Assembly: GCF_900172225.1 (NCBI RefSeq)
Contig: NZ_FWFO01000002.1
Span: forward strand, 1-64,000
DNA: 64,000 nucleotides
Direction: 5' to 3'
From: Falsiruegeria litorea R37
GTDB taxonomy: Bacteria; Pseudomonadota; Alphaproteobacteria; Rhodobacterales; Rhodobacteraceae
The notes beneath the pieces were generated by a model. That model saw nothing but the letters and a program-made list of their open reading frames with translations. It did no database searches and had not been told where the DNA came from. Made by a program: the position numbers and the translations under genes. Within the stretch, counting starts at the first letter, position 1; each line of letters opens with the position of its first letter. Of the stretch, positions 27,952-57,841 are shown one piece after another.

Positions 27952-28710
27952 ATGAAGGATTATGTCCAAGAAGCGGCCTTGGAAGCGTCTAGGCGGATAA
28001 CGGTGACGCCGGGGGGGCGATCCGGGTCTGTTGTGACTGTTGCTGCGATTCCTGCAAATGTGAACGCGGGTATGGGCGCATTTGTCGAAGGCTTGGGGCA
28101 ATCGACCTATGCCCAATTTGGCAAACGTGTTCTCGACATCAGCCTGATTGTCCTGACAGCGCCAATTTGGATGCTGGTCATTGGAATTTGCGCCATCGCG
28201 CTCATGATGGAAGGCGGCAATCCGTTCTATAGGCAGTCTCGCTTGGGGCGTGGGGGACGCACCTTTCAGATTCTGAAACTGCGGACCATGGTGATGGATG
28301 CGGACGCGCAGTTCGAGCGTTTGATGCAAACTGATCCGGAATTGCGGCACGAGTGGGAAACCACCCAAAAGCTGAAAAATGACCCTCGGATCACGCGCGT
28401 TGGCGGGTTTCTGCGGAAGACATCTCTGGATGAACTGCCGCAGCTTTGGAACGTGTTTATCGGAGACATGAGCTTGGTCGGCCCCCGTCCGATGTTGCCA
28501 GAGCAGCTGCCGCTATATGGTCCCAGTGGCTCATACTTTTCGTTGCGTCCGGGCATTACCGGGTTGTGGCAGGTGTCGGCCCGTAACGAGGAAGTCTTCA
28601 GCTTCCGCTCTCGCGTGGATGCAACCTATGCCCGCTCGGTGAGCTTCTGGCAGGATGTGGTTTTGCTGTTCAAGACGATCGGTGTTGTGGCAAGGCGAAC
28701 CGGTTACTGA
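27952..28710 (+). CDS. Initiating undecaprenyl-phosphate sugar transferase (ExoY type)
   Basis: A 252-residue member of the bacterial sugar transferase family. The ATG at 27952 has GGGGGA 4 bases upstream. After a variable N-terminus comes KRVLDISLIVLTAPIWMLVIGI, the single membrane segment. The cytoplasmic catalytic part follows with RQSRLGRGGRTFQILKLRTM, TSLDELPQLWNVFIGDMSLVGPRPM and RPGITGLWQVSARN. It transfers the first sugar-1-phosphate to undecaprenyl phosphate and so starts the polysaccharide repeat unit. It is the first gene of a three-gene plus-strand run with the BY-kinase-like and Wzz-like genes. Confidence 0.92.
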   Translation: MKDYVQEAALEASRRITVTPGGRSGSVVTVAAIPANVNAGMGAFVEGLGQSTYAQFGKRVLDISLIVLTAPIWMLVIGICAIALMMEGGNPFYRQSRLGRGGRTFQILKLRTMVMDADAQFERLMQTDPELRHEWETTQKLKNDPRITRVGGFLRKTSLDELPQLWNVFIGDMSLVGPRPMLPEQLPLYGPSGSYFSLRPGITGLWQVSARNEEVFSFRSRVDATYARSVSFWQDVVLLFKTIGVVARRTGY

Positions 28711-28766
28711 CCGCCGCTTGCGCGTGAAATCGAATGTTCGGGAAAAAGTGGTTTGGGAGCAGCGAC

Positions 28767-29693
28767 ATGAGTTACTATGATAACAAGATGATGTCGGAAG
28801 TTGAAAGCGGCCGGAACCCATCCCCTTTGGACGATACGTCCGGCGGGGCAGAGGATACCTATCGGCCATTCCGCCGCAAGGCTGCCCTGCGCGACGAACC
28901 CGTTTTTGCGCAACGCCAACAGCCTGTCGCGCCCCATATCCTGACCGAAGAGGTGCGGGTTGAAACCCTTCCTGCCGTTCTTCCAAACACTTGGGAACAG
29001 TTGCAGATTGTTTCTTTTGGTATGCGCGATCATATTCGGTCGCGGGCGCCATTGGTGAACTTTTTCCGTGAAACACCCACGGCCCGAGCTTTTGACATTC
29101 TGCGCACCCGCTTGTTGCAGACCCTCAAGCACGAGGGGTGGCGGCGTGTGGCGATCGTTGCGCCGACATCGGGATGTGGTGCGACTTTTACTGCGGTCAA
29201 CTTGGCGCTGAGTTTGGCACGCGTGCCGGACAGTCGCACTGTGTTGATGGACATGAACATGCGCGACCCAGGCGTAAAATCCACGTTGGACATCGCTGCC
29301 CCAGGGCGGCAACAAGATTTCCTGGACGGGCAGATTGCAATGAAGGACCATCTAGTGCGTTGCAGCGATACGTTGGCCGTTGGACTGGCCGATGAGGCAA
29401 GCTCAAACGCGTCGGAATTGTTGCAATCGCAAGCCTGCAGCGAAGCGTTGGACGCGATGATCGAGGACACGCAGCCGGATGTTGTCCTGTATGATCTTCC
29501 ACCGGTTCTGGCGCATGACGATCTGACTGCCTTTATGAACCAGATAGATGGCGTTTTGCTGGTCTCGGATGGTGAGCAGACCACCTCGGATCAGATCAAG
29601 GCCTGCGAGAAAATCATTGGAGGTCACGTGCCGTTGCTGGGGGTGATTTTGAACCGTGGTCGCGGGTCCCGCCTTGAAGCTTACGCCTCCTGA
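28767..29693 (+). CDS. CpsD/BY-kinase-like protein with degenerate Walker A
   Basis: A 308-residue P-loop-like protein of the polysaccharide co-polymerase kinase family. The start at 28767 has GGGAG 7 bases upstream; an earlier ATG at 28734 lacks a ribosome site. A Walker A-prime motif (VLMDMNMRDPG) and a Walker B strand (DVVLYDLPPVLAHDD) are present. The P-loop reads APTSGCGATFTA, so alanine stands where the nucleotide-binding lysine should be. There is also no C-terminal tyrosine cluster. It is unlikely to be an active tyrosine kinase and may regulate export by binding the Wzz-like protein encoded next. Confidence 0.82.
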   Translation: MSYYDNKMMSEVESGRNPSPLDDTSGGAEDTYRPFRRKAALRDEPVFAQRQQPVAPHILTEEVRVETLPAVLPNTWEQLQIVSFGMRDHIRSRAPLVNFFRETPTARAFDILRTRLLQTLKHEGWRRVAIVAPTSGCGATFTAVNLALSLARVPDSRTVLMDMNMRDPGVKSTLDIAAPGRQQDFLDGQIAMKDHLVRCSDTLAVGLADEASSNASELLQSQACSEALDAMIEDTQPDVVLYDLPPVLAHDDLTAFMNQIDGVLLVSDGEQTTSDQIKACEKIIGGHVPLLGVILNRGRGSRLEAYAS

Positions 29694-29818
29694 CACCAGC
29701 TTGGACTTGCTGATGCCATAGTTTCGCCTGTTTGCTATGGTTTATTGCGTGCGTCGACCCGATATTTGGGTGGCAGAGCAGCAAGAGAACAAAGCAGTTT
29801 GCAGGTTGGACAAGGCAC

Positions 29819-31099
29819 ATGGGGCCGATCTTTTCGCTAGATGATCTGATGGACATGTTCCGTCGCCGGGCACGAATGATCGTGGCCGTGATTGTGCTTG
29901 GGTGTGTGGCTTCCGTGTTGTTGGCACTCAGCCAGACGCACGAGTACGAATCCGCCGAAGTCATCCAGATCGCACAGCCAGTGATTGCCGATGATCTCGC
30001 GCGCACCACGGTCGAAGGTTCGTCGGCTCGGCGCTTGCAGTTGATCCAGCAGCGCCTGATGACCCGGGGTATCGTTCTGGAAATCATCGACAAGTTTGGC
30101 CTGTATCAGGACTTGCCCGACCTAAAAGACAGCGCCCGCATTGACCGGTTGCGCCGCTCGGTCCGGATCGAAGGGATCGCGGCCGCGCGCGAAGGATACG
30201 CCGACGATGGTACAATCTCGGTGCTGACCATCACGGCGCGAATGGAAACGCCCGAGCTGGCACAGTCTGTGGCGCATGAGTTTGGGCAGCGCACCATCGA
30301 GCTGAGCAATCAAAACCGCATCGAACAGGCCAGCAAGACGCTTGCATTCTTCGATGCGCAAGAGCAGGCGATTTCAGAAGAGATCGCCGCGCTGGAAAAT
30401 GAAATCACCGAGTATCGCAACACCCACGACCTGTCGCTGCCCGGCAGTCTGGAGTTTCGTCGCGAAGAGGTGTCGACCATCAACGAGGGCCTATTGGATA
30501 TCGCTCGCGACCGGATCGAAGTCGAGCGCGCGATGGAATTGGCCGACAAAAGCCAGCGACCTGCTACGGCGGAGCGTCTGCGAGCGGACTATCTGGAACA
30601 GCTCGCTACGCTGGACGCGCAACAACAGTTGTTGATGAACCGCAAGCAGGAACTTGAAGCGTTGATCGAAACCTCGCCTGAAGTGCAGCGCGAGATCGGC
30701 GCTTATGAGCGCCAGCTCGAGCAGTTGCGGGACGAACTGTCGAACATCGCGACGCGTCGCACTGACGCTGAATTGGGGTTCCGGCTGGAGGATCAGCGCC
30801 AGGCCGAGCGTCTGACAGTCATCGAAGAGGCCGCGCTGCCGGATTACCCTGTGACGGAAAGCCGGACCAAAAAGGCCATTTTGGGCGGAGCTGCGAGTGT
30901 CTTTCTGGCCTTTGCGCTGGCCTATCTGCTTGAGATGCGGAACCCGGTTTTGCGGTCGGCAGCGCAGATGGAGCGCGAGTTGGGACTGGCCCCTGTTGTC
31001 ACCGTGCCGTTTTTGGACACGCGCGAACCACGCAGATCCATTTGGTCGCGTATCGGGTCTATGTTCTCAGGTAAAAAGGCCGGTGGCGGTACAGCTTGA
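29819..31099 (+). CDS. Wzz/GumC-like polysaccharide chain-length protein
   Basis: A 426-residue inner-membrane protein; the ATG at 29819 gives the expected start MGPIFSLDDLMDMFRRRARMIV and has AAGG upstream. One membrane segment lies near residues 20-42 and the second near 355-375. Between them is a long periplasmic helical, coiled-coil region rich in Glu, Gln and Arg. The short cytoplasmic tail has no kinase domain, consistent with the separate P-loop protein encoded 125 bases upstream. It probably sets chain length or couples polymerisation to export. Confidence 0.88.
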   Translation: MGPIFSLDDLMDMFRRRARMIVAVIVLGCVASVLLALSQTHEYESAEVIQIAQPVIADDLARTTVEGSSARRLQLIQQRLMTRGIVLEIIDKFGLYQDLPDLKDSARIDRLRRSVRIEGIAAAREGYADDGTISVLTITARMETPELAQSVAHEFGQRTIELSNQNRIEQASKTLAFFDAQEQAISEEIAALENEITEYRNTHDLSLPGSLEFRREEVSTINEGLLDIARDRIEVERAMELADKSQRPATAERLRADYLEQLATLDAQQQLLMNRKQELEALIETSPEVQREIGAYERQLEQLRDELSNIATRRTDAELGFRLEDQRQAERLTVIEEAALPDYPVTESRTKKAILGGAASVFLAFALAYLLEMRNPVLRSAAQMERELGLAPVVTVPFLDTREPRRSIWSRIGSMFSGKKAGGGTA

Positions 31100-31102
31100 G
31101 CT

Positions 31103-32461
31103 TTACATCTGCGACAGGGCGCTGATCTGCTCCCAGTGGACCCGCAACAACCATGCAACGGCCAAGCTGGAAACTGTCACTGCAAAGATATCGTGCACAG
31201 GGTCCCAAACGCGGTGCTTTACGCTCAGCCAGACAAGGGCAGGGTAGGTGAAAATCATCGACACCCCCAACCCGGCGATGGCACCCAACATGCCGAAATT
31301 CAGCACACCAAAGATGATGCACAACGTTTGGGATGTGGCCTTAACCAGGCTCAGCAGGAAAAAAGACCGACTGTCCCCAGCGGTGAGGGCCGCAGCGTCA
31401 TAGGTCATTATGATCGCTTGCGGGATCAACGCGCAGGCAATCAGGGTGACGATGGGCCCCGACAGATGATAGCGATCATCGTAAAGCAGATCGACCAGCC
31501 CGGGACCAATGGCGGCCATCACAAGAAGCAGTCCCACAATTCCACAGGTCATGACGGCCCGTAGCATCCGCTGTTTGCGTCGACTGCCGGGATCTTCGTG
31601 CGCCGGGCGGTCGCGATAAACCGGGATCATGATCTTTTGGCTAACCGCATGGCCCAGCATCGACGGAAAGCTGCCTAGAAAAAAGCCAATGTTATATAGC
31701 CCCAAGGCTTCCAGCGTCAGGAAACGGCCCAAGATGGCCCGGTCACCCTGGCTGATCAGAAAGGCGAGGCCCGTGCTGAGGAAGATCCACTTGCCGAAAT
31801 GGGCGATCTCGATGGCGGCGGCTTTTTCCCAGCGGAAGCGATTGCGCGGGCCGGGCAGGCCATAGTGTGTGAGCAGCAGTTTTGCGACCGACTGCACCAC
31901 GCCGCCCAACACCAGGGCCAGAACAGACCCGGTCGCCATTGCAAACCAGACCATGAAGCCGATGCCGATGACTTGGCTTGCAAGGTCCAGCAAGGTCAAC
32001 CGGCCCACCAGCAGGTGTCGATGTGCGGTCTCGATCCGGGTCGGGTTGAACCCCGCCACCAACAAGGCCACGGCCGCGATCGGTAGGTATTGCTTCAGTT
32101 CGGGTTCGCCATAGAACGCGGCCACCGGACTGGCCAAGGCCCAGGCCAAGCCAAACAGAAAAACACCCCGGATCACCTGAATTGTCCAGGCCGTGTCCAG
32201 AAAGTCGGGGTCGTCTCCACGTTTGTTCTGCGCGATCGATGGCCCCAAGCCCACGTCCGAGAACAGGTTAAGGCCAACGGTCACAACACTGACCAATGCC
32301 ATCAGGCCAAAGGCTTCGGGGAACAGGATACGGGTCAGGACCAGGTTGGCCGCCAGCCGCAACGCCTGACTGCCGCCAAAACCGATGATCAGCCAAGAGG
32401 CACTGCGCAGCACGCGCGCCATCAGGCCGGATCCGGCAAAGGCTGATACCATCCTGTTCAT
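31103..32461 (-). CDS. Lipopolysaccharide/exopolysaccharide flippase (Wzx-like, MATE/MOP fold)
   Basis: A 452-residue membrane protein with about 12-14 hydrophobic segments; the start MNRMVSAFAGSGLMARVLRSASWL at 32461 is preferred. It carries the polysaccharide-transporter pattern LRLAANLVLTRILFPEAFGLMALVSVV and later FLISQGDRAILGRFLTLEALGLYNIGF, typical of the WzxC-like oligosaccharide flippases. It would move the lipid-linked repeat unit across the inner membrane. It converges with the chain-length gene and is divergent from the glycosyltransferase at 32580. Confidence 0.9.
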   Translation of the reverse strand: MNRMVSAFAGSGLMARVLRSASWLIIGFGGSQALRLAANLVLTRILFPEAFGLMALVSVVTVGLNLFSDVGLGPSIAQNKRGDDPDFLDTAWTIQVIRGVFLFGLAWALASPVAAFYGEPELKQYLPIAAVALLVAGFNPTRIETAHRHLLVGRLTLLDLASQVIGIGFMVWFAMATGSVLALVLGGVVQSVAKLLLTHYGLPGPRNRFRWEKAAAIEIAHFGKWIFLSTGLAFLISQGDRAILGRFLTLEALGLYNIGFFLGSFPSMLGHAVSQKIMIPVYRDRPAHEDPGSRRKQRMLRAVMTCGIVGLLLVMAAIGPGLVDLLYDDRYHLSGPIVTLIACALIPQAIIMTYDAAALTAGDSRSFFLLSLVKATSQTLCIIFGVLNFGMLGAIAGLGVSMIFTYPALVWLSVKHRVWDPVHDIFAVTVSSLAVAWLLRVHWEQISALSQM

Positions 32462-32579: not shown

Positions 32580-33818
32580 TTGAACGACCCAGATCTCCGG
32601 TGCTGCCCTGTGAAAATTGCTTATGTCCTGAACACCTATCCGCAACCCTCGCACAGCTTCATCCGCCGCGAGGTGCAGGCGCTCGAGCGCCAAGGGTTCG
32701 ACATCACCCGCCTGGCCATGCGTCGAAGCGAGGCTGCGCTTGTGGACGCGCGCGATCAGGGGGAAGCAGCACAGACGACCTATGTGCTGGATCGCGGTGC
32801 ATTTGGCTTGTTTGGCGACACTCTCAGGCAAGCGATCCGGGCGCCGATCAAAACGGCCAAAGGGTTTTTCTTGGCCTGGCGCATGGGGCGGGCCTCGCAA
32901 ATCGGGGTTCTGCGGCATTTTATTTACTTGGCTGAGGCGGCCCATGTGGCGCGGCGATGCCGGGCGGACGAGATTGAGCACGTGCACGCGCATTTCGGTA
33001 CGAATGCGGCTGCGGTGGCGATGCTGTCCCACGTTTTGGGTGGCCCGCGGTATTCGTTCACGGTCCACGGTCCCGAGGAGTTTGACGCGCCCCACACCCT
33101 GTCCCTTGGCGACAAGCTGGATCATGCGTCCTTTGCCGTCGGTGTCAGCGCGTTTGGGCGAAGCCAACTGTGCCGGTGGGCAAGTTTTGCGGCTTGGGAC
33201 CGGTTGCACGTTGTTCATTGTGGGATCGAACCCGCTGCCTTTGAGCATTCGACCCCAGTGCCAGATGGGCCTTTGCGATTGGTCGCCATCGGGCGGTTCG
33301 TCGAACAGAAGGGGCAGATGGTTCTGATACGCGCGTTGGAGCACTTGAAGGAGGCGCACCCGGACACGCAACTGGCCTTGGTCGGTGATGGCGAAATGCG
33401 CAACGATCTGGAACATGCTGTGACGGATGCGGGTCTTGGCGACATGGTGCGTTTTACCGGTTGGTTGGATCAGGACGGTGTCCGGGCCGAAATTGAGCAA
33501 GCCCACGCGCTGGTGATGCCCAGCTTTGCCGAAGGCCTGCCCATGGTGATTATGGAAGCCATGGCCGCGGCACGTCCGGTGATTGCCACCTACATCGCCG
33601 GCACGCCCGAGCTGGTGGTCGAGGGGCAGACCGGGTGGCTGGTTCCAGCAGGCGATGATTTTGCATTTGCCAAGGCGATGGAAATGTTGGCAGCCGCACC
33701 AACCGAAGGGCTCGCGCGTATGGGGGAAACCGGCCGTGCGCGGGTATTGCAGCGCCACGATATCGACGATCAGGCCCGCAAGCTTGGTGATCTGTTTCGC
33801 GCGGCAGCAGACTGCTGA
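32580..33818 (+). CDS. Glycosyltransferase family 4
   Basis: A GT-B glycosyltransferase of 412 residues from a TTG at 32580, or 402 from the GTG at 32610, where the homologous part KIAYVLNTYPQPSHSFI begins; neither start has a strong ribosome site. The donor-binding half has VAIGRFVEQKGQMVLIRAL, LALVGDGEMRNDLE and the E-x7-E motif in PSFAEGLPMVIMEAMA. It lacks membrane segments. It likely adds a sugar to the lipid-linked repeat unit. It stands alone on the plus strand and converges with the glycosyltransferase ending at 33819. Confidence 0.88.
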   Translation: MNDPDLRCCPVKIAYVLNTYPQPSHSFIRREVQALERQGFDITRLAMRRSEAALVDARDQGEAAQTTYVLDRGAFGLFGDTLRQAIRAPIKTAKGFFLAWRMGRASQIGVLRHFIYLAEAAHVARRCRADEIEHVHAHFGTNAAAVAMLSHVLGGPRYSFTVHGPEEFDAPHTLSLGDKLDHASFAVGVSAFGRSQLCRWASFAAWDRLHVVHCGIEPAAFEHSTPVPDGPLRLVAIGRFVEQKGQMVLIRALEHLKEAHPDTQLALVGDGEMRNDLEHAVTDAGLGDMVRFTGWLDQDGVRAEIEQAHALVMPSFAEGLPMVIMEAMAAARPVIATYIAGTPELVVEGQTGWLVPAGDDFAFAKAMEMLAAAPTEGLARMGETGRARVLQRHDIDDQARKLGDLFRAAADC

Positions 33819-34664
33819 TCAGCGCCCGCGCGCCCAATCTGAGGTGGATTTGTAAAGCGGAGACTTTACGGCCGAGGCGACAGTGGCGTAGACCAGAAAC
33901 CCTATCGGATGCCTCAGCGTGCGGCGTATCAGACCGCTCAACCCGATCTCTGCCTTGTCGTCGTTGGTGGTTAGGGCGGGAAACAATTCGGCAATCTGTG
34001 CAACCCCGTCATTCTGGCGTCTGCGCACCCTGACGAGACTTCGAAACCCTTCGACCAAGGGCCAATGGTATTCAGCCGTGACCCGAACCCTTTCAGCAGA
34101 GGTAAAGTTCAGCCGGGCAAACGTGTCGTCCGAGATGATCTGCGGCCAGTCTCCCCACCGGTCACGTCCCGCACGATTCATGGCAAAAATCCCGAACCCC
34201 GGGCAGCCATCGGTCACAAACGGGAGCGTCACCCAAAAGCGGCCATAGGTTCGGGTGATCCAACTTTGCGCTGGTGACACATGCGGTGAACCACTGCCAT
34301 AGGCGGCATCATCGCCAGACAACTGCTCGATCAATTGTGGCAACAGAGCCGAAGACACCGTCACATCTGCATCCAGATAAACCAGCACTTGGCCGGTCGC
34401 AGCAGCATCACCCGCGTTGAGCGCGCCAGGTTTGCTGCCTTGGTCCAAGTCGACAACCTGCCACCCCCATCCGCGCGCCTCAGCGGCGGTGGCATGCGAA
34501 ATGGCGCGATCAGCCGTGTTGTCCGTGCAGCCATTGGCGACCACGATTACTTGAGCCTGCCACCCCTCTGGCAGGGCATCGCTGTTCAGCAAAGCCCGCG
34601 CGCAGGCGTCGATGTAGTCCGCCTCGTTATGTGCGGGCAGGATGATGCTGACGGTTTTGATCAT
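33819..34664 (-). CDS. Glycosyltransferase family 2
   Basis: A 281-residue GT-A enzyme. The ATG at 34664 overlaps the upstream stop as ATGA and gives the standard start MIKTVSIILPAHNEADYI. Further motifs are VIVVANGCTDNTAD, KPGALNAGDAAATG and the metal-binding VYLDADVTVS. Near residue 140 it carries CPGFGIFAMNRAG. It is the last gene of the long minus-strand run that starts with the PKS, so at least one sugar transfer is coupled to the NRPS-PKS operon. Confidence 0.88.
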   Translation of the reverse strand: MIKTVSIILPAHNEADYIDACARALLNSDALPEGWQAQVIVVANGCTDNTADRAISHATAAEARGWGWQVVDLDQGSKPGALNAGDAAATGQVLVYLDADVTVSSALLPQLIEQLSGDDAAYGSGSPHVSPAQSWITRTYGRFWVTLPFVTDGCPGFGIFAMNRAGRDRWGDWPQIISDDTFARLNFTSAERVRVTAEYHWPLVEGFRSLVRVRRRQNDGVAQIAELFPALTTNDDKAEIGLSGLIRRTLRHPIGFLVYATVASAVKSPLYKSTSDWARGR

Positions 34665-37228
34665 CGGAACGCTGACACGGCTTGCCATCGGGGATTGTTG
34701 TCGCTCAGGTGCCGCAGGTGACCCCAACTGCCCCATTTGTTCGGTCGATAGACATCCGCGTAGGCGTTGAACAGTTTGCCGCCAAGTGCATGCCAACCCC
34801 GGATCAGCTCGGTGTAAAGCGCGCCCATTTCCGGCGAATAGTTGAAATGGGTGAAAAACGCGGTCAGCTCTTCATCGTCGACCATGGGGCCGATACCGAC
34901 AACATGTGTGCCGCCCTCGTACATGATCAGGTCCAGAGCATATGTGTCCGCCACTTTCGCATGGTACGGCAGGCGCTCTGTCAAATTGTGGGCCAGCGTG
35001 TCTTCTGTCTGGCCGCTCACAAGCCCGTCTCGCAGTTCGGCCCAAGCCAGAGCCGAGGCCGCGTCGAACCGGTGTTGGCTGATATGGTCCTGCAAGGCCG
35101 TGCCAGTCAGCCCCTTGGCTGTGCCTTGTGCTGATGCTTGCGCACGACTTTCCGCCAACCAGCCCTGTACCATGTCGCGGCGATCTTCGAGGCCAAGAAC
35201 ACCGCCAAAATATCCCGTCACAGCGTAGGCATCAAAGTGGTCCGCGGGGCGTGTTCGGCCTGGTTTTTCGGCGACCCAAGGCGGTGCCTCAAGGATCAAC
35301 TCTTCCAAACCGATCCAACCCGTTTGGGTGGAAATCACCCGAACCAGGCGGTCTGCTGCCTGATCGCCATAAACCTGCGTCCAGATCTGCGCCATTTCAG
35401 CGGCCCGACCGCCGTAAAAAGCAACCCAATGATCTTTTTTGTCCCAGGCCGCCAGCGCCTGTTCATCGGCCCAATGGGCCTGTTGAAATTGCCAGTTCCA
35501 GACCTCATTGGAATATTCGACATAGGCCTTTTGCTCGATCCACAGCGTATCGCGGACATACTCGGCAAAGGTGCGCATATAGGCATCGTCCGCCATATGG
35601 GGCATGTTGAACCATCCGTCCCCGCCCGTGCGGTTGAGCAGCTCGACCATCACCTCCAGCGGAACGCCATGATGTGCGTAGGTGTAGTCACTGGGGCGCG
35701 GGCGATCGGCCCAGGTGGTTTGGGTCGAGTTGTTGGTCTCCATCCAATCCATGAACCGCAACACTTGGAAGCCCTGAAGATGGTCCAGCCAAAGCGGATT
35801 GAAGATTGCGCCTGCGTCATAGGCCGCCTCATGCTCCAGCTTCACGACCGAGATGTTGCGGATGTAATCGCCACCCAAATGCGTGCGCTGAATGCGGATG
35901 TCGACGGGGCCGGGGCCGGGCTCAAAGTCGAACTCGATCCGGTTCTTGCCGTAACGCACGTTCTTGGCGCGGCCACGGACCTCGACAATGCCCTTGCCCT
36001 GATACCGCAACGCGTATCGCCCTTTGGTCGATACGGCTTCGGGTGGCAGATCTGTCAGAATCAAGGTCCCGATCGAGCCCAGCTCGGGCGGGATTTCCAC
36101 CGGCCAGCCATAATCGTCCAGATAGCCCGCCGCATTCAGATCCTCATGAGTTGCACCGCCAAAACGCCGAGGCAAATGCCCGATCCAGGGGCGGGCGGTT
36201 TTCATCACGTCAAGGAACGGTTGCTGGACCGACCAGTCGTTGACCCCAGCCAGCCCAATGGCCAGTGGCACGCGGCCCTCCGGTTCGGGGGGGGCGGGAA
36301 ACCCCTCGGGCAAGGGAATGGGATCGATGGTCGATTCGGATGCAACGGGCGCCTCCGGCGCAGTCGGTGCAGGCGGGGTGCCCGCCTGTGCCGGCTGCGC
36401 CGCCCCCGGCTTGGGTGGCGTTGGTTGGATGGCGTCGTAGGCGTTGACCACTTCAAACGCAATTTGTTGTAGCCGTTGAGCAAGGGCGGGGTTCGGGGCC
36501 TTGAACGGCCCGCCCCACTTGTCGCGCAACCGACGCGGCAGGCCTTCGGGGTTTTCACCGGTGATGGCGGCAAATTGCACCATGGTCAGAAAGTAGAACC
36601 CCAGATCGTTGGGGTGGATGGTGTCCGAAAACACATCGTCGATGCGATCCAGGCCGGGGACCGAGCCTGCGGTGATCTCATAGGCCAGCTGTGCCATCGC
36701 CTGACCGGCGGGGATCAGCTGCATGGGCGGTACATCCGGCCCGCGCTGCGCGTTCACCGAAGCGACAATCCCCTCCCACGCGGGCAGGTCTTGCTCGATC
36801 CGTTGTAGCCAGGGTGTGCCGTCGCCGTCGTCATATTCGATGTCGATTCCGCTGCCCGAGCGCAGGTCGTGCCAGGTTTCCTGTAAAAACACGCGCGTTT
36901 CCGGATTGGCGCCTGTGGCCAGATCGAAGTATTTTTGCGCATAGCCCGCGCTGTCGTTGAATTCGACCTGGTTGGCGAGCGGGATTGCTTCGGTCAGGAT
37001 CACGACGTTGTAATCCCCACCAGCAAGTGCACGCCGCGCGTTCAACCCCTCAGCCCGGTCCGCGTCGGTCCAGTTGTAAGACAGCGGCGCACCGTTGATG
37101 ATCTGAAAATCCACTTGCGCCTGCGGAGCGGCGCGTTCCAGAACTTGCGCCATCATCTGCGGGTTGGTCGGCCCGAACAGGCTGTGCCCCACAAAGAACA
37201 CGCCAACCAATGTGGACAACCAGCTCAT
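34661..37228 (-). CDS. Large SGNH-like plus glycoside-hydrolase-like protein
   Basis: An 855-residue protein; the ATG at 37228 overlaps the preceding stop. Its N-terminal 240 residues resemble the upstream protein: a hydrophobic start with FFVGHSLFG (Ser16), a VVILTEAIPL strand, a YETWH-like FLQETWHDL and the DTIHPNDLG block (Asp202, His205). That is the SGNH hydrolase plan. A Pro/Ala-rich linker (about 285-325) follows. Residues 330-855 resemble a clan GH-A barrel, with YSNEVWNW (Glu575) and MYEGGTH (Glu771) as candidate acid/base and nucleophile. A role in deacylating, cleaving or trimming the polysaccharide is inferred. A signal-like hydrophobic N-terminus suggests export. Confidence 0.65.
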   Translation of the reverse strand: MSWLSTLVGVFFVGHSLFGPTNPQMMAQVLERAAPQAQVDFQIINGAPLSYNWTDADRAEGLNARRALAGGDYNVVILTEAIPLANQVEFNDSAGYAQKYFDLATGANPETRVFLQETWHDLRSGSGIDIEYDDGDGTPWLQRIEQDLPAWEGIVASVNAQRGPDVPPMQLIPAGQAMAQLAYEITAGSVPGLDRIDDVFSDTIHPNDLGFYFLTMVQFAAITGENPEGLPRRLRDKWGGPFKAPNPALAQRLQQIAFEVVNAYDAIQPTPPKPGAAQPAQAGTPPAPTAPEAPVASESTIDPIPLPEGFPAPPEPEGRVPLAIGLAGVNDWSVQQPFLDVMKTARPWIGHLPRRFGGATHEDLNAAGYLDDYGWPVEIPPELGSIGTLILTDLPPEAVSTKGRYALRYQGKGIVEVRGRAKNVRYGKNRIEFDFEPGPGPVDIRIQRTHLGGDYIRNISVVKLEHEAAYDAGAIFNPLWLDHLQGFQVLRFMDWMETNNSTQTTWADRPRPSDYTYAHHGVPLEVMVELLNRTGGDGWFNMPHMADDAYMRTFAEYVRDTLWIEQKAYVEYSNEVWNWQFQQAHWADEQALAAWDKKDHWVAFYGGRAAEMAQIWTQVYGDQAADRLVRVISTQTGWIGLEELILEAPPWVAEKPGRTRPADHFDAYAVTGYFGGVLGLEDRRDMVQGWLAESRAQASAQGTAKGLTGTALQDHISQHRFDAASALAWAELRDGLVSGQTEDTLAHNLTERLPYHAKVADTYALDLIMYEGGTHVVGIGPMVDDEELTAFFTHFNYSPEMGALYTELIRGWHALGGKLFNAYADVYRPNKWGSWGHLRHLSDNNPRWQAVSAFR

Positions 37229-51224: not shown

Positions 51225-51254
51225 ATAAAGACCTTCAGACAGGGGAAAATCCGG

Positions 51255-52718
51255 TCACAACAAACTGCGCTTTTCCGAGGCATTGACCGGTCGCCCGATA
51301 ACCGGACCCTTGTCGAAAAATAGTTTATCCTCAGGCGTTTCAGCCGGAAACCGCAATCGCTCAGCATAGCCCAGAACCGCCCCTGCACACAGCCACGTAA
51401 AAGGCGTTAGGGTGGCATTCAAGAGCATGTCCATCATGGTTGCGGCCAATATTATCGCAATTGGTGCCACAAAGGGCGAAAACTCGGCCGTTGGAATGCG
51501 TCTGGTGTACACGAACAGCAGAAGGATCGGCCCTGCAAGCAGGCCCATCTGCGCGATGTATCCCACCCAACCAAAGGTCCCGAAGACGATGATCCAGCTG
51601 CCATCGGGAACGGTCAGGATTTCGGCCGTCTCAGTGTGACGCACCAGATTGCGGCCCCAACCGCCCCATCCGAACCACGGTTTTTCGTGGGCGCGATCCA
51701 GCATCTGCTCTTCGTTGTCAAAGCGATATTGCAGCGATTGTGCGCGTGCTGCGCTGACGTCTTCGGCCTGAGCTACGATGGCATCCAGTGGGATGACGCC
51801 AAAGTTGCGCAGCATAGGATAGGTGATCGCGATCGAGGCTAAAACCAAAGCCAGCAGGATCTTGGTCCGCACGCCAAAGAACAGCATCACCGGCGTCAGC
51901 ACCAGACCATAGCTGAGAGAGGCCAGACTTTTGCAGGCATTCAGGACAAACAGCAGATAAAGCGTCGCCCCGCCCCAATAAAGCCGCGCCTCGTCTTTTG
52001 AGGCGCGGGCCAGAGCCGCCGCGGAAAGCAAGGCCGAGACAAAGAAAAACGCCAACCACAGCCCGTGAGGCAGAAACATGATCGGGCGGAACCCGCCTTC
52101 GCGGATCATCTGGCGGAAATCATGCTGAAAGAAGCCGTAGACGTAGATGTTGATGATCGGGCTGATGATCGTCTCAAGCAGAGCAGGCACAGAATAGACC
52201 AACCCCGCCACGGCAAGGGCCAGAATGATCTCGCGCAGGCCGGTGTCTGACGATAGATATGTCATCGCCAGAAAGAACGGCAGCAGCACGATGACCTGGT
52301 TGATCGTCACCGACAGCAGGTCGCGCACGCCCATGCCAGGCAGGTAATTCGTGATGAACCGGATCGGTTCGCTGCCTGCCAGCACCTCAAAGATCATCGG
52401 CTCGCGGTTGGTCAGTACCGTGGGGATCACCACCAGCATGAAAGTTGCCAGCAACATCTGCATGGACCAGGATTTTGGCCAGAACGACACCCGTTTGCGC
52501 GCAACGAAAACACAGCCCAACGTGGCACTGACGGCGGCGATGGAATCCTTGTTCATTGATGGGATCAGCGGCAAATCGAACTCGGCCACCGGGGGTAGGA
52601 TCAGGTAACCGCCCAGAATGCTCCAGATGATCGCTCGTTCGATGGGCAAACGCCGAAACAGGGCCACGCAGACAAGCGGCCATGTCATCAGCATCAGATA
52701 TGCGAACGCATTGGGCAT
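51255..52718 (-). CDS. O-antigen ligase/polymerase-like membrane protein (Wzy-like)
   Basis: A 487-residue polytopic membrane protein with about 11-12 hydrophobic segments. The recognisable O-antigen-ligase family stretch is the periplasmic-loop motif AHEKPWFGWGGWGRNLV near residue 350. In an exopolysaccharide locus with a flippase and chain-length protein this is the best candidate for the repeat-unit polymerase. A ligase attaching glycans to another acceptor is the alternative. It is on the same strand as the PKS but separated by 265 bases, and is divergent from the WecG/TagA-type gene. Confidence 0.8.
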   Translation of the reverse strand: MPNAFAYLMLMTWPLVCVALFRRLPIERAIIWSILGGYLILPPVAEFDLPLIPSMNKDSIAAVSATLGCVFVARKRVSFWPKSWSMQMLLATFMLVVIPTVLTNREPMIFEVLAGSEPIRFITNYLPGMGVRDLLSVTINQVIVLLPFFLAMTYLSSDTGLREIILALAVAGLVYSVPALLETIISPIINIYVYGFFQHDFRQMIREGGFRPIMFLPHGLWLAFFFVSALLSAAALARASKDEARLYWGGATLYLLFVLNACKSLASLSYGLVLTPVMLFFGVRTKILLALVLASIAITYPMLRNFGVIPLDAIVAQAEDVSAARAQSLQYRFDNEEQMLDRAHEKPWFGWGGWGRNLVRHTETAEILTVPDGSWIIVFGTFGWVGYIAQMGLLAGPILLLFVYTRRIPTAEFSPFVAPIAIILAATMMDMLLNATLTPFTWLCAGAVLGYAERLRFPAETPEDKLFFDKGPVIGRPVNASEKRSLL

Positions 52719-52917: not shown

Positions 52918-53673
52918 GTGCAGTTCACCTTTTCAGATCAGGTCATTCACGTGAATTGTCCCGACCAAGACAGCCTGTTCACCGCCGTGACCAAGCGGTT
53001 TCAGGTGGGTCAGGGGTTTTCGCTGGCGACGATCAATCTGGATCACTTAGTGAAATTGGGCGAGGATGCCACGTTCGCACGTGTCTATGCGGCGCAGGAT
53101 TTCATCGTGGCAGACGGCCGCCCGATTGTGTGGTTGTCGCGGCTTGCCGGGCGTCCCGTGCAGCTTTTGCCAGGGTCGGACATGGTGCGCCCGCTGGCTG
53201 GGCTGGCGGCGAAATGCGGTGTGAAGGTCGCATTGGTGGGCAGCACGGATCAGGCCCTGTCCGATGCCAAACGCGTGCTCGAGGCTGAGGTGCCGGGATT
53301 GCAGATCACCCTGTGTCGCTCGCCGCGATTGGGGTTTGACCCAGAGAGCGACGATGCCATAGCAATCTTGCAAGAGCTGGATGAGGCAGGCGTGCAGTTC
53401 TGTTTTCTGGCCCTTGGCGCCCCCAAACAGGAAACGCTTGCCTTGCGCGGGCGCAACTTGGCACCGCGGGTAGGGTTTGCCTCGGTCGGGGCGGGGCTGG
53501 ATTTTTTGGGCGGGCATCAGACGCGGGCACCGCAGTGGGTGCGGAGCTTGGCCTTGGAATGGGTCTGGCGCGCTCTGTCCAACCCGGCGCGGCTGATCCC
53601 AAGATACGCGCGGTGCCTGGCCATTCTGCCGGGGCAGGCGCGTCAGGCCCGCAAGCTGCGCAAAAGCGGCTAG
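52918..53673 (+). CDS. WecG/TagA/CpsF-family glycosyltransferase
   Basis: A 251-residue GT26 enzyme from a GTG with CAGGAG 7 bases upstream. Conserved stretches are ATINLDHLVKL, VADGRPIVWLSRL, LLPGSDMVRPL, CFLALGAPKQETLAL and VGAGLDFLGGHQTRAPQWVRSLALEWVWRAL. Such enzymes add N-acetylmannosamine-type or related sugars as the second step on a lipid-linked glycan. Its stop overlaps by 4 bases the stop of the convergent oxidoreductase-epimerase gene, the two sharing the CTAG sequence. Confidence 0.92.
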   Translation: MQFTFSDQVIHVNCPDQDSLFTAVTKRFQVGQGFSLATINLDHLVKLGEDATFARVYAAQDFIVADGRPIVWLSRLAGRPVQLLPGSDMVRPLAGLAAKCGVKVALVGSTDQALSDAKRVLEAEVPGLQITLCRSPRLGFDPESDDAIAILQELDEAGVQFCFLALGAPKQETLALRGRNLAPRVGFASVGAGLDFLGGHQTRAPQWVRSLALEWVWRALSNPARLIPRYARCLAILPGQARQARKLRKSG

Positions 53674-55778
53674 AACCCGAACAGCTTGGCCTGGGTGATG
53701 GCCTTGCGGATGAACTCGGCGCGGTTGCTCTCGGGGTGCCATCCCAGCACGCGACAGGCTTTGGCGTTGTCAAAGGGGCTGTAATGCGCGCGGGATTTCC
53801 AATCTGCCAGCGAGGGGCGGGTCAACCCGTGGCGTCGCAGAACGTGATGCTTCAACTGGTGCTTGATGTAATCGGCGGCAAACATGACTGATAGGTTACC
53901 AAAGCCCACGCGCAAGCGCGCGCCCATGGCATCTTCGATCGCGTCAAAGTAATCGCGCCCTGTCATCATCGGTGCGCCGACGATGTTGAAGCTTTCGCCC
54001 TCGATGTCCGGCGTTTCGGCCATACGCGCAAGCGCCTCGACCGTGTCGTCTATCAACACGAAAGGCAGCGTGTTGCGCCCGTTACCCCAAAGCTTGACGG
54101 CTCCCGCCCCGTGCCATCGGCCAATGCCCCAATGCTGCAACGGACCGCCGTGGCCCACCACGATGCCGGGCCGCGCGATCACCAGCGGCAGGCTCTTGGT
54201 GCGATGCATCGCCAACAGCCGTCGTTCGCACTCGGCCTTGGACCGGGCATAGAGATTGCGGTCGCTCATATCCTGGGCAAAGCCAGTGTCCTCGGTGATC
54301 CGAATCTGCGGGTCGGACATGTCATAAGACGCAATCGTACCAGTGTAGATCAGCCGTTTGACGCCTGCATCCAACGCAGCCTGGCCGATCCCTTCGGCCA
54401 CAGCGACGTCGTGTTTCAGACAATCCTCCCACGAGGTATCGACAGAGCGGGCCAGGTTGTAGACCGTTTCGATCCCCTCCATTGCTTGCGTCAGGCCTTG
54501 GGTATCGGACAGCGACAACCCAACGGTTTCCACCTGATCTGGTAGATCGGCAAAGGGACCAGAGGTGCCCCGGCTGATCACGCGAACGTCCTTGCCCATG
54601 GCGACCAGGTGCCGAGTCAGGGCGCGCCCGATGAAGCCGGTGCCGCCGATCACCATGACGGTGGGTTCGGGGGCGCGATTGGCTTGTGGCGGAGCAGGCA
54701 GGTCTCGCTGCTCCGAGGACATCAGAGACAGCGCCTGATCCAGGGCGCCCATCACCTTGATTGCCGAGGCGCCCGAAAACCGCGTGTCCGCTGGGGCGTT
54801 GCGCGTCAGCGGGCCATAGACTCCATCCATCATGCCCCGAAAGCTCAGCCCGTAAGGCGATTTGGCATTGAACGAGGTCAACTGCCGAGCCGCGTTCACA
54901 CATCCCGCTTTCAGGTGCTGGCCACTCACCGAAAGTTGCCGCCAGAGCGGATTGGCCACCAGATCAGCCGTATTCTCGGTATCCACGATCAACGTGTCCG
55001 CCGCCAGATCGAGCCGCGCCCGTCCGGTGGAACCGCGCAAAGTCACTGAGCGGTCATCGCTGGTCTCGACCAGAGAGATCATCAGACTCAGTTCGACATC
55101 CCTCACGTTGGCGCGCATGTGCCAGGTCTGCGGGCGCGTGCCGCTGCCGGGGATGGCAATCGGGTGAGAAAGACCCAAATCGCGAACTTCAGCTTGGCCA
55201 AACAGATCCTGAACGATCGCAAACAGATGCGGCCCGATCTCTAGCAGCAGGTTCTCGGGCTTGCGCATCAGCCACAGGCCAAAGGGACCTGACCGCAGGG
55301 GCGACAACGGAAAGCACCAACGCACTTCGGCCGAAGAAATCCGTCCCAGTTTGCCTGCATGCGCCATCGCCTTGAGCCGTTCATAGGACGGCAGACCCAA
55401 AAAGTTGTGGCCTGCGTGAAAGCGTCTGTCGGCCTGTTGCGCGGCCTCTTCGATGGCCTGCGTGTCCTGGGCGGACAGGGCCACGGGTTTTTCCACCAGC
55501 ACATGCAGCCCTGCGTTCAGACATTGGATCGCCAGATCGCGGTGGCTGTCGGGGGGCGTCAGGATGTGAACCGCATCGCAGACCTCGGCGGCGATCAGAT
55601 CCTCGACCGAGGCAAAACCCCGAACCCCATAGGCGTCGGCCAGCCCGTGGGCTGCATTTGCTGCGCGGTCACAGATTGCGCTCAGTTCGATATCTGGCGT
55701 GGCTTTGATCGCGTCAGCGTGCCAGCTGGCGATGTATCCAGCGCCAATCAGGCCGATACGGATGGGGGATTGGGTCAT
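53670..55778 (-). CDS. Fused Gfo/Idh/MocA oxidoreductase and NAD-dependent epimerase/dehydratase
   Basis: A 702-residue two-enzyme fusion. Residues 1-350 are a Gfo/Idh/MocA sugar oxidoreductase: IGLIGAGYIASWHADAI, then the cofactor-site motif VLVEKPVAL. From about 370 a second Rossmann domain starts (VMVIGGTGFIGRALTRHL), with an extended-SDR active site, YTGTIASYDM and YARSKAECERR (YxxxK). The two halves are usually separate genes. It probably oxidises and then epimerises or reduces a nucleotide sugar for the polysaccharide. It is the last gene of a three-gene minus-strand run after two glycosyltransferases (9-base gap). Confidence 0.88.
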   Translation of the reverse strand: MTQSPIRIGLIGAGYIASWHADAIKATPDIELSAICDRAANAAHGLADAYGVRGFASVEDLIAAEVCDAVHILTPPDSHRDLAIQCLNAGLHVLVEKPVALSAQDTQAIEEAAQQADRRFHAGHNFLGLPSYERLKAMAHAGKLGRISSAEVRWCFPLSPLRSGPFGLWLMRKPENLLLEIGPHLFAIVQDLFGQAEVRDLGLSHPIAIPGSGTRPQTWHMRANVRDVELSLMISLVETSDDRSVTLRGSTGRARLDLAADTLIVDTENTADLVANPLWRQLSVSGQHLKAGCVNAARQLTSFNAKSPYGLSFRGMMDGVYGPLTRNAPADTRFSGASAIKVMGALDQALSLMSSEQRDLPAPPQANRAPEPTVMVIGGTGFIGRALTRHLVAMGKDVRVISRGTSGPFADLPDQVETVGLSLSDTQGLTQAMEGIETVYNLARSVDTSWEDCLKHDVAVAEGIGQAALDAGVKRLIYTGTIASYDMSDPQIRITEDTGFAQDMSDRNLYARSKAECERRLLAMHRTKSLPLVIARPGIVVGHGGPLQHWGIGRWHGAGAVKLWGNGRNTLPFVLIDDTVEALARMAETPDIEGESFNIVGAPMMTGRDYFDAIEDAMGARLRVGFGNLSVMFAADYIKHQLKHHVLRRHGLTRPSLADWKSRAHYSPFDNAKACRVLGWHPESNRAEFIRKAITQAKLFGF

Positions 55779-55787
55779 CTTGATGGC

Positions 55788-56756
55788 TCACTGATATTCG
55801 ATGATTTCGGGCGTCCGGTTCCGTACCCGGTTCAGTTGATACTTGGCCATTCCCAGCAGGTTAGGGAATTTCGACAGGGTCAGGAACAGCGCGTGGACGC
55901 GCGCCTGAGGGGGAGGCAGGTTTTCGGCTCGCAACCCGGCAACCGTTCTCAGGTAAGAGGCAGCGTAAAGACCCAGAACCATCAGCAGCACCCATGGTGA
56001 AAACGCGGCGCCGACAATGGCCAGAAGCGGTAGGATAAGCCCAAAAAGCAGGACACGTCTAATTTCGCTGCGGAAATGGCCAGGGTGCAGCCCGTTTACT
56101 TGAGCAAACCCGTGGCCGGCCCGTACGGCTCGTTGCCACCACTGACCAAAGCGGGTCATGGCTGCGTCATGGCGCGTCATCTCAAGCGGCAGCCGTTCCA
56201 GCCGCCAGCCTGCCAACCCCAAGCGTAGGCAAAAATCGTCGTCTTCGGCTGCGATCACATGGTTCGAAAACCCGCCGACTTGCCGGAACGCTTCGGCCCG
56301 CACCAGCATGTCACCGCCGCAGGCGATGATCGGACCGGCAGGGCGGTGCCATTCGTGGTCGCACATCTGGTTGTATACGCTGGCGTCCCGGTGAACCTCG
56401 GACCGCCACCCTGTGACCACGGCCAGCTTTGAATCGGTCTCGATATGGGCTTGGGCGGCAGCGATCCAGCCGGGGACCAAGGCACAGTCGCCGTCGATGA
56501 ACTGTACCAGGTCTGGCGGGTCGCCCTGTTCCAGCCGCGCAAAGCCCGCGTTGCGGGCGCGGGCTGCGCTGAAGGGGACGGACATGTCCAATTCGACCAC
56601 TTCGGCCCCGGCTTTATGAGCCGCGGCGACGCTGTCGTCGGTCGAGCCGGAATCCACATAGACGATCCGGGATGCCTGCCCCTGTGCCGCGTCCAGCGCG
56701 CGTTTGAGCCGATCGCCTTCGTTGCGACCGATCAGGACCAGAGCGACGGGGGTCAT
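55788..56756 (-). CDS. Glycosyltransferase family 2 with C-terminal membrane segments
   Basis: A 322-residue GT-A enzyme. The ATG at 56756 overlaps the upstream stop (ATGA) and gives the proper start MTPVALVLIGRNEGDRLKRAL; the longer frame upstream is non-homologous. Motifs: RIVYVDSGSTDDSV, ARNAGFARL, VQFIDGDCALVPGW, then GGDMLVRAEAFRQVGGF and EDDDFCLRL. A hydrophobic pair near residues 250-280 may anchor it to the membrane. It probably extends the polysaccharide repeat unit. Confidence 0.88.
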   Translation of the reverse strand: MTPVALVLIGRNEGDRLKRALDAAQGQASRIVYVDSGSTDDSVAAAHKAGAEVVELDMSVPFSAARARNAGFARLEQGDPPDLVQFIDGDCALVPGWIAAAQAHIETDSKLAVVTGWRSEVHRDASVYNQMCDHEWHRPAGPIIACGGDMLVRAEAFRQVGGFSNHVIAAEDDDFCLRLGLAGWRLERLPLEMTRHDAAMTRFGQWWQRAVRAGHGFAQVNGLHPGHFRSEIRRVLLFGLILPLLAIVGAAFSPWVLLMVLGLYAASYLRTVAGLRAENLPPPQARVHALFLTLSKFPNLLGMAKYQLNRVRNRTPEIIEYQ

Positions 56757-57841
56757 GACGCCTCCCGCAAAGCGGTCTCGAGCCGGTCGCAGGCGTGCGC
56801 CCAGGTGTGGGCAGCAGCCACGTCGCGGCTGACTTGCGACATCGCTTGCCAGTCGGCGTTCGGTGCTTTGAGGATGCGCAAAGCGTGATCCGCAATTGCC
56901 GCTGCATCGCCCACATCGACAATGGCCCCGTTCACGCCGGGGGTGATCAGATCCTGCGCCGCACCCACGTCCGTTGACACGAGTGGACAGCCACAGGCCA
57001 TCGCCTCGAGCAAGGGTAGGAAATACCCCTCGGACGTGCTGCCGCAGAGAAACAGATCGCAACCCGCATAAAGCGCGGGGATTTGCGCCTGTTCGGGACG
57101 GCAGAGGTAGTCTGATCCGGGCGGCAAGGGCAGGTCGTCCGACATCGGCTCGGCACCAAAGGCACGCACGCGCAGATCGGGCAGAGCCGCACGTATCTGT
57201 TCAATCGCTTGCAACAGCGTGCCGGTGCCTTTGATCGCATTGGTGCTGTAGAGCAGCCCGACAGTTGGATGATCCTGTTTGTCGCGAGGGGGGGCGCTGA
57301 AATGGCTCAAGTCCACGCCGTTGGGCACCAGCACCGCGTCGTTCTGACCATACTCCGAGGCCATGACCTGGCCCAGCCAGTTCGATACAACAAAGTGCTT
57401 TAAGGGCAGGTAGTAAGTGCTGCGCGAGATCTGCCAGGGCAGGAAATCATGCACCTCGTGGTGCTGGATCAGGTAGTAGGGGCGCCCTTTGGACGGAGGC
57501 ATGGCTGCGGCGGAAAACGCGGTTTCCCACCAGGTGGCGATCAGGGCATCACCGTCGGGGATGTCGTCATGGGTGAACAGGAAATCATCGCGGCCGGCCT
57601 CGACGATCGGCACTGTGATCTGGTCGAAATGCCCACCCTCATCGGGCTCACGGTCGGGCAGACGCCCCCGGATCAGGGATTTCGCCCAGGTCTTGGCCTG
57701 GGTTTTGGCCCCGACTTGCCGTTTTGCCGGAACCACGATGCTTACCTCGTGTCCCCGGTCCTGCAACATCTGCGCATGGATCGCGATCACGCGCAGGCCG
57801 CCCGACAGGTTCGAGCGAGGGCTGAGAAACGTGATCCGCAA
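56753..57841 (-). CDS. Glycosyltransferase family 4
   Basis: A 362-residue GT-B enzyme starting MRITFLSPRSNLSGGLRVIAIHA, the usual acceptor-domain opening of this group. The donor half has VGLLYSTNAIKGTGTLLQAI and the E-x7-E motif within LCGSTSEGYFLPLLEAMACGCPLVSTDVG. It is the first gene of the three-gene minus-strand run with the GT2 enzyme and the fused oxidoreductase-epimerase, and marks the right edge of the polysaccharide locus. Confidence 0.9.
   Translation of the reverse strand: MRITFLSPRSNLSGGLRVIAIHAQMLQDRGHEVSIVVPAKRQVGAKTQAKTWAKSLIRGRLPDREPDEGGHFDQITVPIVEAGRDDFLFTHDDIPDGDALIATWWETAFSAAAMPPSKGRPYYLIQHHEVHDFLPWQISRSTYYLPLKHFVVSNWLGQVMASEYGQNDAVLVPNGVDLSHFSAPPRDKQDHPTVGLLYSTNAIKGTGTLLQAIEQIRAALPDLRVRAFGAEPMSDDLPLPPGSDYLCRPEQAQIPALYAGCDLFLCGSTSEGYFLPLLEAMACGCPLVSTDVGAAQDLITPGVNGAIVDVGDAAAIADHALRILKAPNADWQAMSQVSRDVAAAHTWAHACDRLETALREAS

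Follow-up and report, generated by a model that had tools for sequence, protein, structure and literature searches.

Why should a polyketide synthase (PKS) and a protein resembling a nonribosomal peptide synthetase (NRPS) be encoded in the midst of a polysaccharide locus? The question is posed by a stretch of 64,000 nucleotides from Falsiruegeria litorea R37 (contig NZ_FWFO01000002.1, positions 1 to 64,000; hereafter the window), in which a Wzx/Wzy-type locus at 27940-57841 encloses an operon made up of the genes for the PKS, a GT2 glycosyltransferase, the NRPS-like protein and a 4'-phosphopantetheinyl transferase (PPTase). The cassette formed by these four genes is genetically associated with glycan genes. 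On balance, it appears probable that this conserved cassette makes a short acyl unit that decorates a Wzx/Wzy-type polysaccharide.

Association of the cassette with glycan genes

The distribution of the cassette was followed using the N-terminal 539 amino acids of the NRPS-like protein as query (E<=1e-20). Relatives were found in 143 of 394 Rhodobacteraceae genomes, nearly all of different genera. A class-level sample yielded matches in 10 of 385 genomes, five of them Rhodobacteraceae (including the window's own) and five, weaker, in other families. Neighbourhoods were taken by NRPS score from the 142 other family genomes, giving 111 regions of 3.8-40 kb; two of these (G155 and G147), being too fragmentary to reach the score cut-off, were dropped. 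A PKS gene is present in 106 of the remaining 109 regions. In the other three the sequence stops less than 1 kb from where the NRPS begins (a contig end in two, the region boundary in the third), and a longer named copy of the latter (L207) does show the PKS. GT2 and PPTase genes are found in 104 and 90 regions, respectively, and the order PKS-GT2-NRPS is kept on one strand in 101 of the 102 regions having all three. A further glycan gene is present in 104 of the 109 regions (median, 4 marker open reading frames [ORFs]).

A set of 80 named loci, out of at least 580 relatives listed, gave a similar picture; some of these loci are the same contigs as the 109 regions. Most are from roseobacters (Tropicibacter, Ruegeria, Leisingera, Roseovarius, Salipiger, Shimia and others), the non-roseobacters being two Hydrogenophaga metagenome-assembled genomes (MAGs), one Burkholderiales MAG and one Verrucomicrobiales MAG. 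The PKS gene accompanies the NRPS gene in 79 loci (in the last, L221, the sequence breaks off near the beginning of the NRPS), GT2 in all 80, the order is kept in 79 of 79, and 71 of the 80 contain a further glycan gene. As a control, six 40-kb stretches from five cassette-bearing plasmids were scored with the same queries and cut-off. None contained a glycan marker, nor did positions 1-26000 of the window, while 6-12 marker ORFs were counted in each cassette region of these five plasmids. The control is small, was confined to plasmids and used stretches placed by hand; it indicates that these particular replicons are not glycan-rich throughout. Chance co-location was ruled out by the neighbourhood counts together with the marker-free control stretches. 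An earlier annotation of the window, made from its sequence alone (the original prediction), had proposed this comparison across the Rhodobacteraceae. Its outcome is that NRPS-PKS genes lying away from polysaccharide genes are not the rule.

Pairing of PKS and NRPS genes with glycan genes was also observed outside the family, in Aminobacter, Shinella, Neorhizobium, Rhizobium, Hydrogenophaga MAGs, a Verrucomicrobiales MAG and Deinococcus; co-location of the three thus extends to Hyphomicrobiales, to Burkholderiales and Verrucomicrobiales MAGs and to Deinococcus. In seventeen plasmid records the match extends over at least 80% of the NRPS protein, and eleven of these records were examined. The one from Aliiroseovarius differs and is described below. 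In the other 10 of the 11, the PKS gene is adjacent and glycan genes are annotated or were detected, the evidence in the Methylobacterium plasmid consisting of weak GT4 matches only; in the Rhizobium sp. BG6 plasmid the PKS reads as two ORFs. An independent search with the PKS returned 17 records at 45% identity or more, 16 of which are also among those listed for the NRPS; the exception is Tateyamaria omphalii, where the PKS lies 0.7 kb from the record end.

The Deinococcus actinosclerus plasmid (L278, 16939-29983) carries a variant of the cassette, flanked by capsule genes, a UDP-glucose dehydrogenase gene and sugar transferase genes. Here the formyltransferase is a separate protein, encoded along with an A[LLM]-PCP protein (an adenylation domain with inserted luciferase-like monooxygenase, and a carrier domain) and the PKS, whose last domain is a Condensation domain; no Thioesterase match was found in this PKS. 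The condensation domain has the HHxxxD motif with alanine replacing the usual glycine, and may serve for an amide- or ester-forming release. A gene for an Acetyltransf_6/FemAB-like (GNAT-type) protein directly precedes the formyltransferase gene. Other plasmids differ in detail. In Paracoccus marcusii (L040, 674-4552) a gene for a second adenylation-domain protein, about 1300-1380 amino acids long, adjoins WecG and GT4 genes, and a second adenylation-domain protein of this size is encoded beside the cassette NRPS in a family genome (G126). In Ruegeria sp. SCSIO 43209 (L279, 22662-23448) a short hypothetical ORF that matches the PPTase only weakly occupies the PPTase position, and a gene for a transposase comes next; the PPTase of this cassette may have been lost.

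Pairwise distances between NRPS proteins are correlated with those of the PKS (r=0.90, 161 loci), of the GT2 (r=0.70, 155 loci; a value reached by none of 999 permutations) and of an SGNH/glycoside hydrolase (GH)-like protein described below (r=0.79, 63 loci). Shared descent alone would also produce these correlations.

Anatomy of the cassette proteins

The cassette genes and those for two SGNH-type proteins and another GT2 form a run on the minus strand of the window (Table 1), in the order PKS, GT2, NRPS-like, PPTase, SGNH protein, 855-amino-acid SGNH/GH-like protein, GT2. The first GT2 gene (43515-44525) is separated from the PKS gene by 5 nt and overlaps the NRPS-like gene by 4 nt; the NRPS-like and PPTase genes likewise overlap by 4 nt.

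Table 1. Genes and domains of the polysaccharide locus and its PKS-NRPS cassette
Feature	Position	Strand	Remarks
WbaP-type initiating sugar-phosphate transferase (Bac_transf)	27940..28710	+	Pfam Bac_transf E=1e-57; WbaP model 271 bits, below cut-off
BY-kinase-type ATPase (CpsD/Wzc-like)	28734..29693	+	NCBIfam tyrosine autokinase models, below cut-off
Wzz-type chain-length protein, two hydrophobic segments	29732..31099	+	Pfam Wzz 27 bits (cut-off 25.5); hydropathy
Wzx-type flippase	31103..32461	-	Polysacc_synt_3 E=1e-45
GT4 glycosyltransferase, EpsE-like	32580..33818	+	
GT2 glycosyltransferase	33819..34700	-	
855-amino-acid SGNH/GH-like protein	34661..37228	-	N-terminal SGNH-like motif and C-terminal glycoside hydrolase-like look, both by eye only
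SGNH-fold protein (esterase or O-acyltransferase type), one N-terminal hydrophobic segment	37225..38172	-	
PPTase	38234..38905	-	4PPT_N E=2e-23, ACPS E=1e-11
F-A[LLM]-PCP starting module, 1538 amino acids	38902..43518	-	
Luciferase-like monooxygenase domain (LLM) inside adenylation domain	40144..41196	-	TIGR04020 480 bits (cut-off 244); in 172/172 aligned relatives
GT2 glycosyltransferase between PKS and NRPS-like genes	43515..44525	-	Glycos_transf_2 E=2e-14
Mono-modular type I PKS, KS-AT-KR-DH-ACP-TE	44531..50986	-	Start codon uncertain; ORF opens at 51010
Polytopic protein, Wzy polymerase/ligase candidate	51255..52718	-	Wzy_C E=0.0095, below cut-off; 9 hydrophobic segments
WecG/TagA/CpsF-type glycosyltransferase	52918..53673	+	Pfam E=8e-42
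Gfo/Idh/MocA oxidoreductase-SDR epimerase fusion	53670..55778	-	Match in 40/109 neighbourhoods, some being single-domain relatives
GT2 glycosyltransferase	55788..56768	-	
GT4 glycosyltransferase	56753..57841	-	

The name NRPS, used in the original prediction, is a loose one for what is a starting module with an inserted monooxygenase. From its N-terminus, the protein comprises a formyltransferase (F) domain (Formyl_trans_N and Formyl_trans_C), some 200 amino acids without a Pfam match, an adenylation (A) domain split by the luciferase-like monooxygenase (LLM) and a peptidyl carrier protein (PCP) domain. Pfam finds no Condensation domain in 38902-43518, and the protein therefore most likely starts a chain; a peptide-elongating NRPS was ruled out for the same reason. 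An F domain with residues N, H and D, and no condensation domain ahead of the A domain, would place it among formylating starting modules. Of the PDB sequences, linear gramicidin synthetase LgrA, in its formylating starting module, matches the whole protein best. Read from an alignment, the adenylation code is DILQLGMIWK, of the type DILQxGM[I/V]WK that is assigned to glycine. Conservation was examined in 172 distinct sequences of at least 1400 amino acids, shorter copies being left out. The F-domain N, H and D, presumably the catalytic residues, are kept in 170-171 of them and the PCP serine in 170. The adenylation code varies only at position 299, occupied by M, L, F or Y and rarely by V or A, and at position 330, with four I-to-V changes.

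In the PKS, the catalytic residues checked in the ketosynthase (KS), acyltransferase (AT), ketoreductase (KR), dehydratase (DH), acyl carrier protein (ACP) and thioesterase (TE) domains are kept in all 164 sequences of at least 2000 amino acids (again without shorter copies). Pfam shows neither an enoylreductase (ER) domain in the PKS nor a methyltransferase domain in the PKS/NRPS-like cassette of the window. The other ketosynthase matches of the genome fall in ORFs of 392-554 amino acids, making the window PKS the sole PKS-sized one found. A PDB sequence search with the cassette GT2 as query gave no match.

The gene beyond the PPTase encodes a protein (37225-38172) with the SGNH fold, the block I serine and the block V DxxH of the SGNH (GDSL) superfamily. 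The 855-amino-acid protein that follows has no sequence match in Pfam, NCBIfam or PDB, the latter searched also with an alignment of the protein, yet it is matched in 148 of the 394 family genomes. Its distribution follows that of the NRPS closely: 135 genomes have both, 8 the NRPS alone, 13 the SGNH/GH-like protein alone and 238 neither. Genomes within a family not being independent, we attach no probability to this co-occurrence.

The surrounding polysaccharide locus

A priming sugar-phosphate transferase, a Wzx flippase and a Wzz-type co-polymerase are all encoded at 27940-57841, as in a Wzx/Wzy-dependent locus; the polytopic protein at 51255-52718 is the candidate for the Wzy polymerase. 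The gene set that the original prediction had placed around the PKS, NRPS and PPTase genes (initiating sugar transferase, Wzz, Wzx, ligase/polymerase-like protein, WecG and five other glycosyltransferases) was found in its entirety. Its starting point, position 27952, is an internal ATG; the longer sugar transferase ORF begins at 27940. To this set the present analysis adds the formyltransferase domain, the inserted LLM, the absence of a Pfam Condensation match, the BY-kinase-type ATPase, the two SGNH-type proteins and the fusion of a Gfo/Idh oxidoreductase with a short-chain dehydrogenase/reductase (SDR) epimerase. Strong relatives of this fusion, about 700 amino acids long, recur in many cassette loci, and an unusual sugar may be its product. 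Among the locus genes, none was recognised as encoding an outer membrane polysaccharide export (OPX) protein; Poly_export is matched twice at other sites of the genome. Scanning the window for Rfam families and tRNAs gave no matches.

About 8 kb before the locus, an ORF on the plus strand (16557-19790) encodes an acyl-CoA carboxylase-type fusion, 1077 amino acids long, of biotin carboxylase, biotin carrier and carboxyltransferase; it might supply a malonyl-type extender. Between the carboxylase gene and the locus lie two ORFs, at 20425-22278 (minus strand) and 22608-23642 (plus strand), without a Pfam match at E<=0.01, and a gene for a GNAT-type (Acetyltransf_6) protein, on the plus strand at 23639-24877, 3 kb outside the locus.

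Proposed pathway and alternative explanations

How might the cassette proteins act together? The PPTase, going by its family, would activate the carrier domains, and the adenylation domain is predicted from its glycine-type code to load glycine. The formyltransferase domain, with its conserved N, H and D, would formylate the amine, and the inserted monooxygenase would oxidise the glycyl unit, with the alpha carbon as the likeliest site and N-oxidation as another possibility. The PKS would then add probably one malonate-type unit (both the number of rounds and the extender are presumed), and its reduction and dehydration would leave a chain of the 4-formamido-but-2-enoyl type that is oxidised at C4 or N. 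Transfer of this chain to a sugar acceptor, perhaps supplied or extended by the neighbouring GT2, would fall to the TE or, in Deinococcus, to the terminal condensation domain. Wzx would flip the decorated repeat unit ahead of its polymerisation, and the SGNH protein might move or trim acyl groups. Of the genetic hints that the chain passes to an acceptor instead of simply being released, the condensation domain at the end of the Deinococcus PKS is the best; for a sugar as that acceptor, it is the retention of a GT2 between PKS and NRPS. The SGNH protein and a GNAT-type protein, as encoded at 23639-24877 and in Deinococcus, are other candidates for the transfer step. It is also conceivable, though speculative and in our judgement unlikely, that the polysaccharide carries an N-oxidised or otherwise reactive formylglycine-derived C4 group, made by a dedicated PKS-NRPS line of several phyla, and thereby binds metals polyvalently or forms a matrix that cross-links itself. 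Candidate forms of such a group are an N-hydroxyformamide, an oxime or an N-formyl hemiaminal by which the GT2 bridges two sugars.

A number of observations weigh against the decoration of a polysaccharide. Among the 109 regions, four (G364, G294, G217 and G185) have a cassette without a glycan marker within 20-28 kb, and in three of them (G364, G217 and G185) housekeeping genes adjoin the cassette, as judged by Pfam on part of the neighbouring ORFs; an SGNH/GH match occurs elsewhere in the genome in all four, weak in three. A fifth region without a marker (G244) is only 5.7 kb long. Five regions have no GT2 beside the PKS-NRPS pair, one being cut by a contig end. The 31 genomes with the lowest NRPS scores are not in the neighbourhood set. 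Nine of the 80 named loci have no marker: six are stretches of less than 15 kb, of which L267 has a GT4 by Pfam, and the other three, L239, L262 and L268, each span about 21 kb in full. The SGNH/GH match lies close to the cassette in just 39 of 109 regions, and many matches span the C-terminal part only, so that the co-occurrence is genome-wide and not always within the locus. MAG assignments to other phyla may reflect binning errors. Among the genes of 27940-57841, none was recognised as encoding a dedicated acyltransferase. Finally, a plasmid of Aliiroseovarius sp. M344 (L044, 20004-33743) encodes a related F-A[LLM]-PCP module that shares the glycine-type code; an NRPS/PKS of about 3,080 amino acids comes next. 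The two lie between nos genes and the exosortase gene xrtD, with no glycan marker. A module of this kind can thus serve a large NRPS-PKS where glycan genes are missing, and its presence is by itself no sign of a glycan. Marker-free regions, the Aliiroseovarius module and the absence of a recognised acyltransferase from the locus keep our confidence in the decoration of the polysaccharide moderate.

The retention of the PKS-NRPS pair in the four family regions without nearby glycan genes, and the use of the same type of module to start a large assembly line in Aliiroseovarius, are what would be expected if PKS, NRPS and GT2 made a free, possibly glycosylated small molecule (a signal, chelator or toxin). 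The TE could simply hydrolyse the chain, and co-location would reflect common accessory islands for a surface lifestyle, or use of the flippase for export. This explanation is less easily reconciled with the six marker-free control stretches of the same plasmids, with the co-occurrence of the SGNH/GH-like protein over 394 genomes and with the recurrence of the pairing with glycan genes in other orders and phyla; moreover, Pfam recognised no dedicated small-molecule exporter or resistance gene among those of 27940-57841. We consider it unlikely. The original prediction had allowed for either an acyl group on a glycan or a glycosylated molecule exported by the glycan machinery. The genetic association common to both stands (104/109), and it is on genetic grounds that attachment to the glycan would be preferred over a free glycosylated molecule.

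The PKSs of the RkpA/WcbR type found in capsule clusters are thought to make a lipid-like chain for anchoring or priming. An iterative PKS could do so here as well, with the glycine unit as the starter, and the finding of no second PKS-sized ketosynthase ORF in the genome, along with the description of mono-modular PKSs (wcbR/rkpA) in capsule clusters (PMC3908369), speaks in its favour. We regard such a chain as quite unlikely: in a PKS without an ER domain in Pfam, iteration would give a polyene; the priming sugar-phosphate transferase makes another lipid carrier unnecessary; and neither Kps-type ABC export genes nor an RkpG/WcbS-type acyltransferase had a Pfam match among the genes called in 27940-57841. 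Historical hitch-hiking, that is, co-location without a functional link, would account for a cassette that occurs on different replicons and in several phyla, at times apart from glycan genes, and correlated distances are expected from shared descent alone. Against it, relatives sharing only about 40-50% of the N-terminal 539 amino acids retain the order of the genes, the catalytic residues and the glycan context, and do so amid different glycan gene sets; we hold hitch-hiking to be very improbable.

Comparison with known systems

As a rule, polysaccharides receive their acyl, pyruvyl or amino-acid groups from single-enzyme transferases. If an acyl unit made by the cassette does decorate the polymer, a glycan-dedicated hybrid assembly line would bring non-sugar groups of a new origin into biofilm polymers. 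Capsule clusters with a PKS are already known; what seems new is the combination of an assembly line with a Wzx/Wzy polymer. Full-text searches of open PubMed Central papers gave no description of a PKS-NRPS cassette as part of an exopolysaccharide (EPS) pathway, in agreement with the original prediction, which knew of no described product for the gene set. Occurring as it does in 143 of 394 family genomes, the NRPS-like protein may influence how a major group of marine bacteria attaches and aggregates. PKS/NRPS genes filed under secondary metabolism in Phaeobacter genome papers could then partly be cell-surface genes, and a clear experiment becomes possible in a genetically tractable roseobacter.

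Some of these genes may have been recorded before. In Phaeobacter inhibens T5, Inhi_1972 (PKS) and Inhi_1974 (NRPS) have one tag between them (PMC4062626), as do Daep_00050 (PKS) and Daep_00048 (NRPS) in the P. daeponensis genome paper; such spacing would fit the cassette, whose product is unnamed in the available portions of the genome papers. The same source places PGA1_c04930 (PKS) and PGA1_c05350 (NRPS) 42 tags apart (PMC4062626). By tag number only, PGA1_c05350 is near exoY (PGA1_c05320 or c05260), but the tags being inconsistent, the link of P. inhibens to the locus is a lead only. The chromosomal exoY cluster of P. inhibens, described in 2024, is of the Wzx/Wzy type, with glycosyltransferases unlike those characterised for EPS, and an exoY mutant attaches less (PMC10984933). 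It resembles the window locus in its type, and it contains no OPX gene, just as none was recognised in the window locus; it differs in that, in the part of the paper available, recognised modification genes are reported absent (PMC10984933). The published exoYC quantitative PCR forward primer had no match in sets of 18 and 121 genomes, among which P. inhibens is perhaps not represented. The Salipiger mucosus genome paper names EPS genes and, in its available text, no PKS or NRPS (PMC4148975).

The RkpA/WcbR system shares with the window a type I PKS (wcbR/rkpA, mono-modular) among polysaccharide synthesis and export genes, in its case those of capsular polysaccharide clusters; a formylating, monooxygenase-bearing NRPS partner is not mentioned for it in the accessible part of PMC3908369. 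The window PKS, by contrast, has the domains KS-AT-KR-DH-ACP-TE and stands as a rule beside GT2 and F-A[LLM]-PCP genes in Wzx/Wzy-type loci. RkpA/WcbR systems are accompanied by an RkpG/WcbS-type acyltransferase and Kps-type ABC export genes.

As for the chemistry, LLM domains of other assembly lines have been described or proposed as hydroxylases, epoxidases and Baeyer-Villiger-type enzymes (PMC8739492). In necroxime biosynthesis, oxime formation is proposed from a glycine primer; the glycine primer, an oxygenase domain and an early dehydratase in the PKS line amount to a likeness of logic with the window cassette (PMC7318616). The necroxime line is long, of the trans-AT type and equipped with a methyltransferase, and the word 'formyl' is absent from the main text (PMC7318616). 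LgrA has in common with the window protein an F-A-PCP start without an upstream condensation domain, and the F-domain N, H and D are kept. MtaG and MelG contain glycine adenylation domains with an inserted monooxygenase; MtaG, a precedent for glycine alpha-hydroxylation, acts at the chain end and leaves an amide. The window protein shares with this type the luciferase-like domain inside a glycine-type adenylation domain, but it is a formyltransferase-bearing F-A-PCP starting module, whereas MtaG is a terminal extension module behind a condensation domain. Compared with LgrA, the glycine-type code, the inserted monooxygenase and the stand-alone protein beside a PKS are features of the window module.

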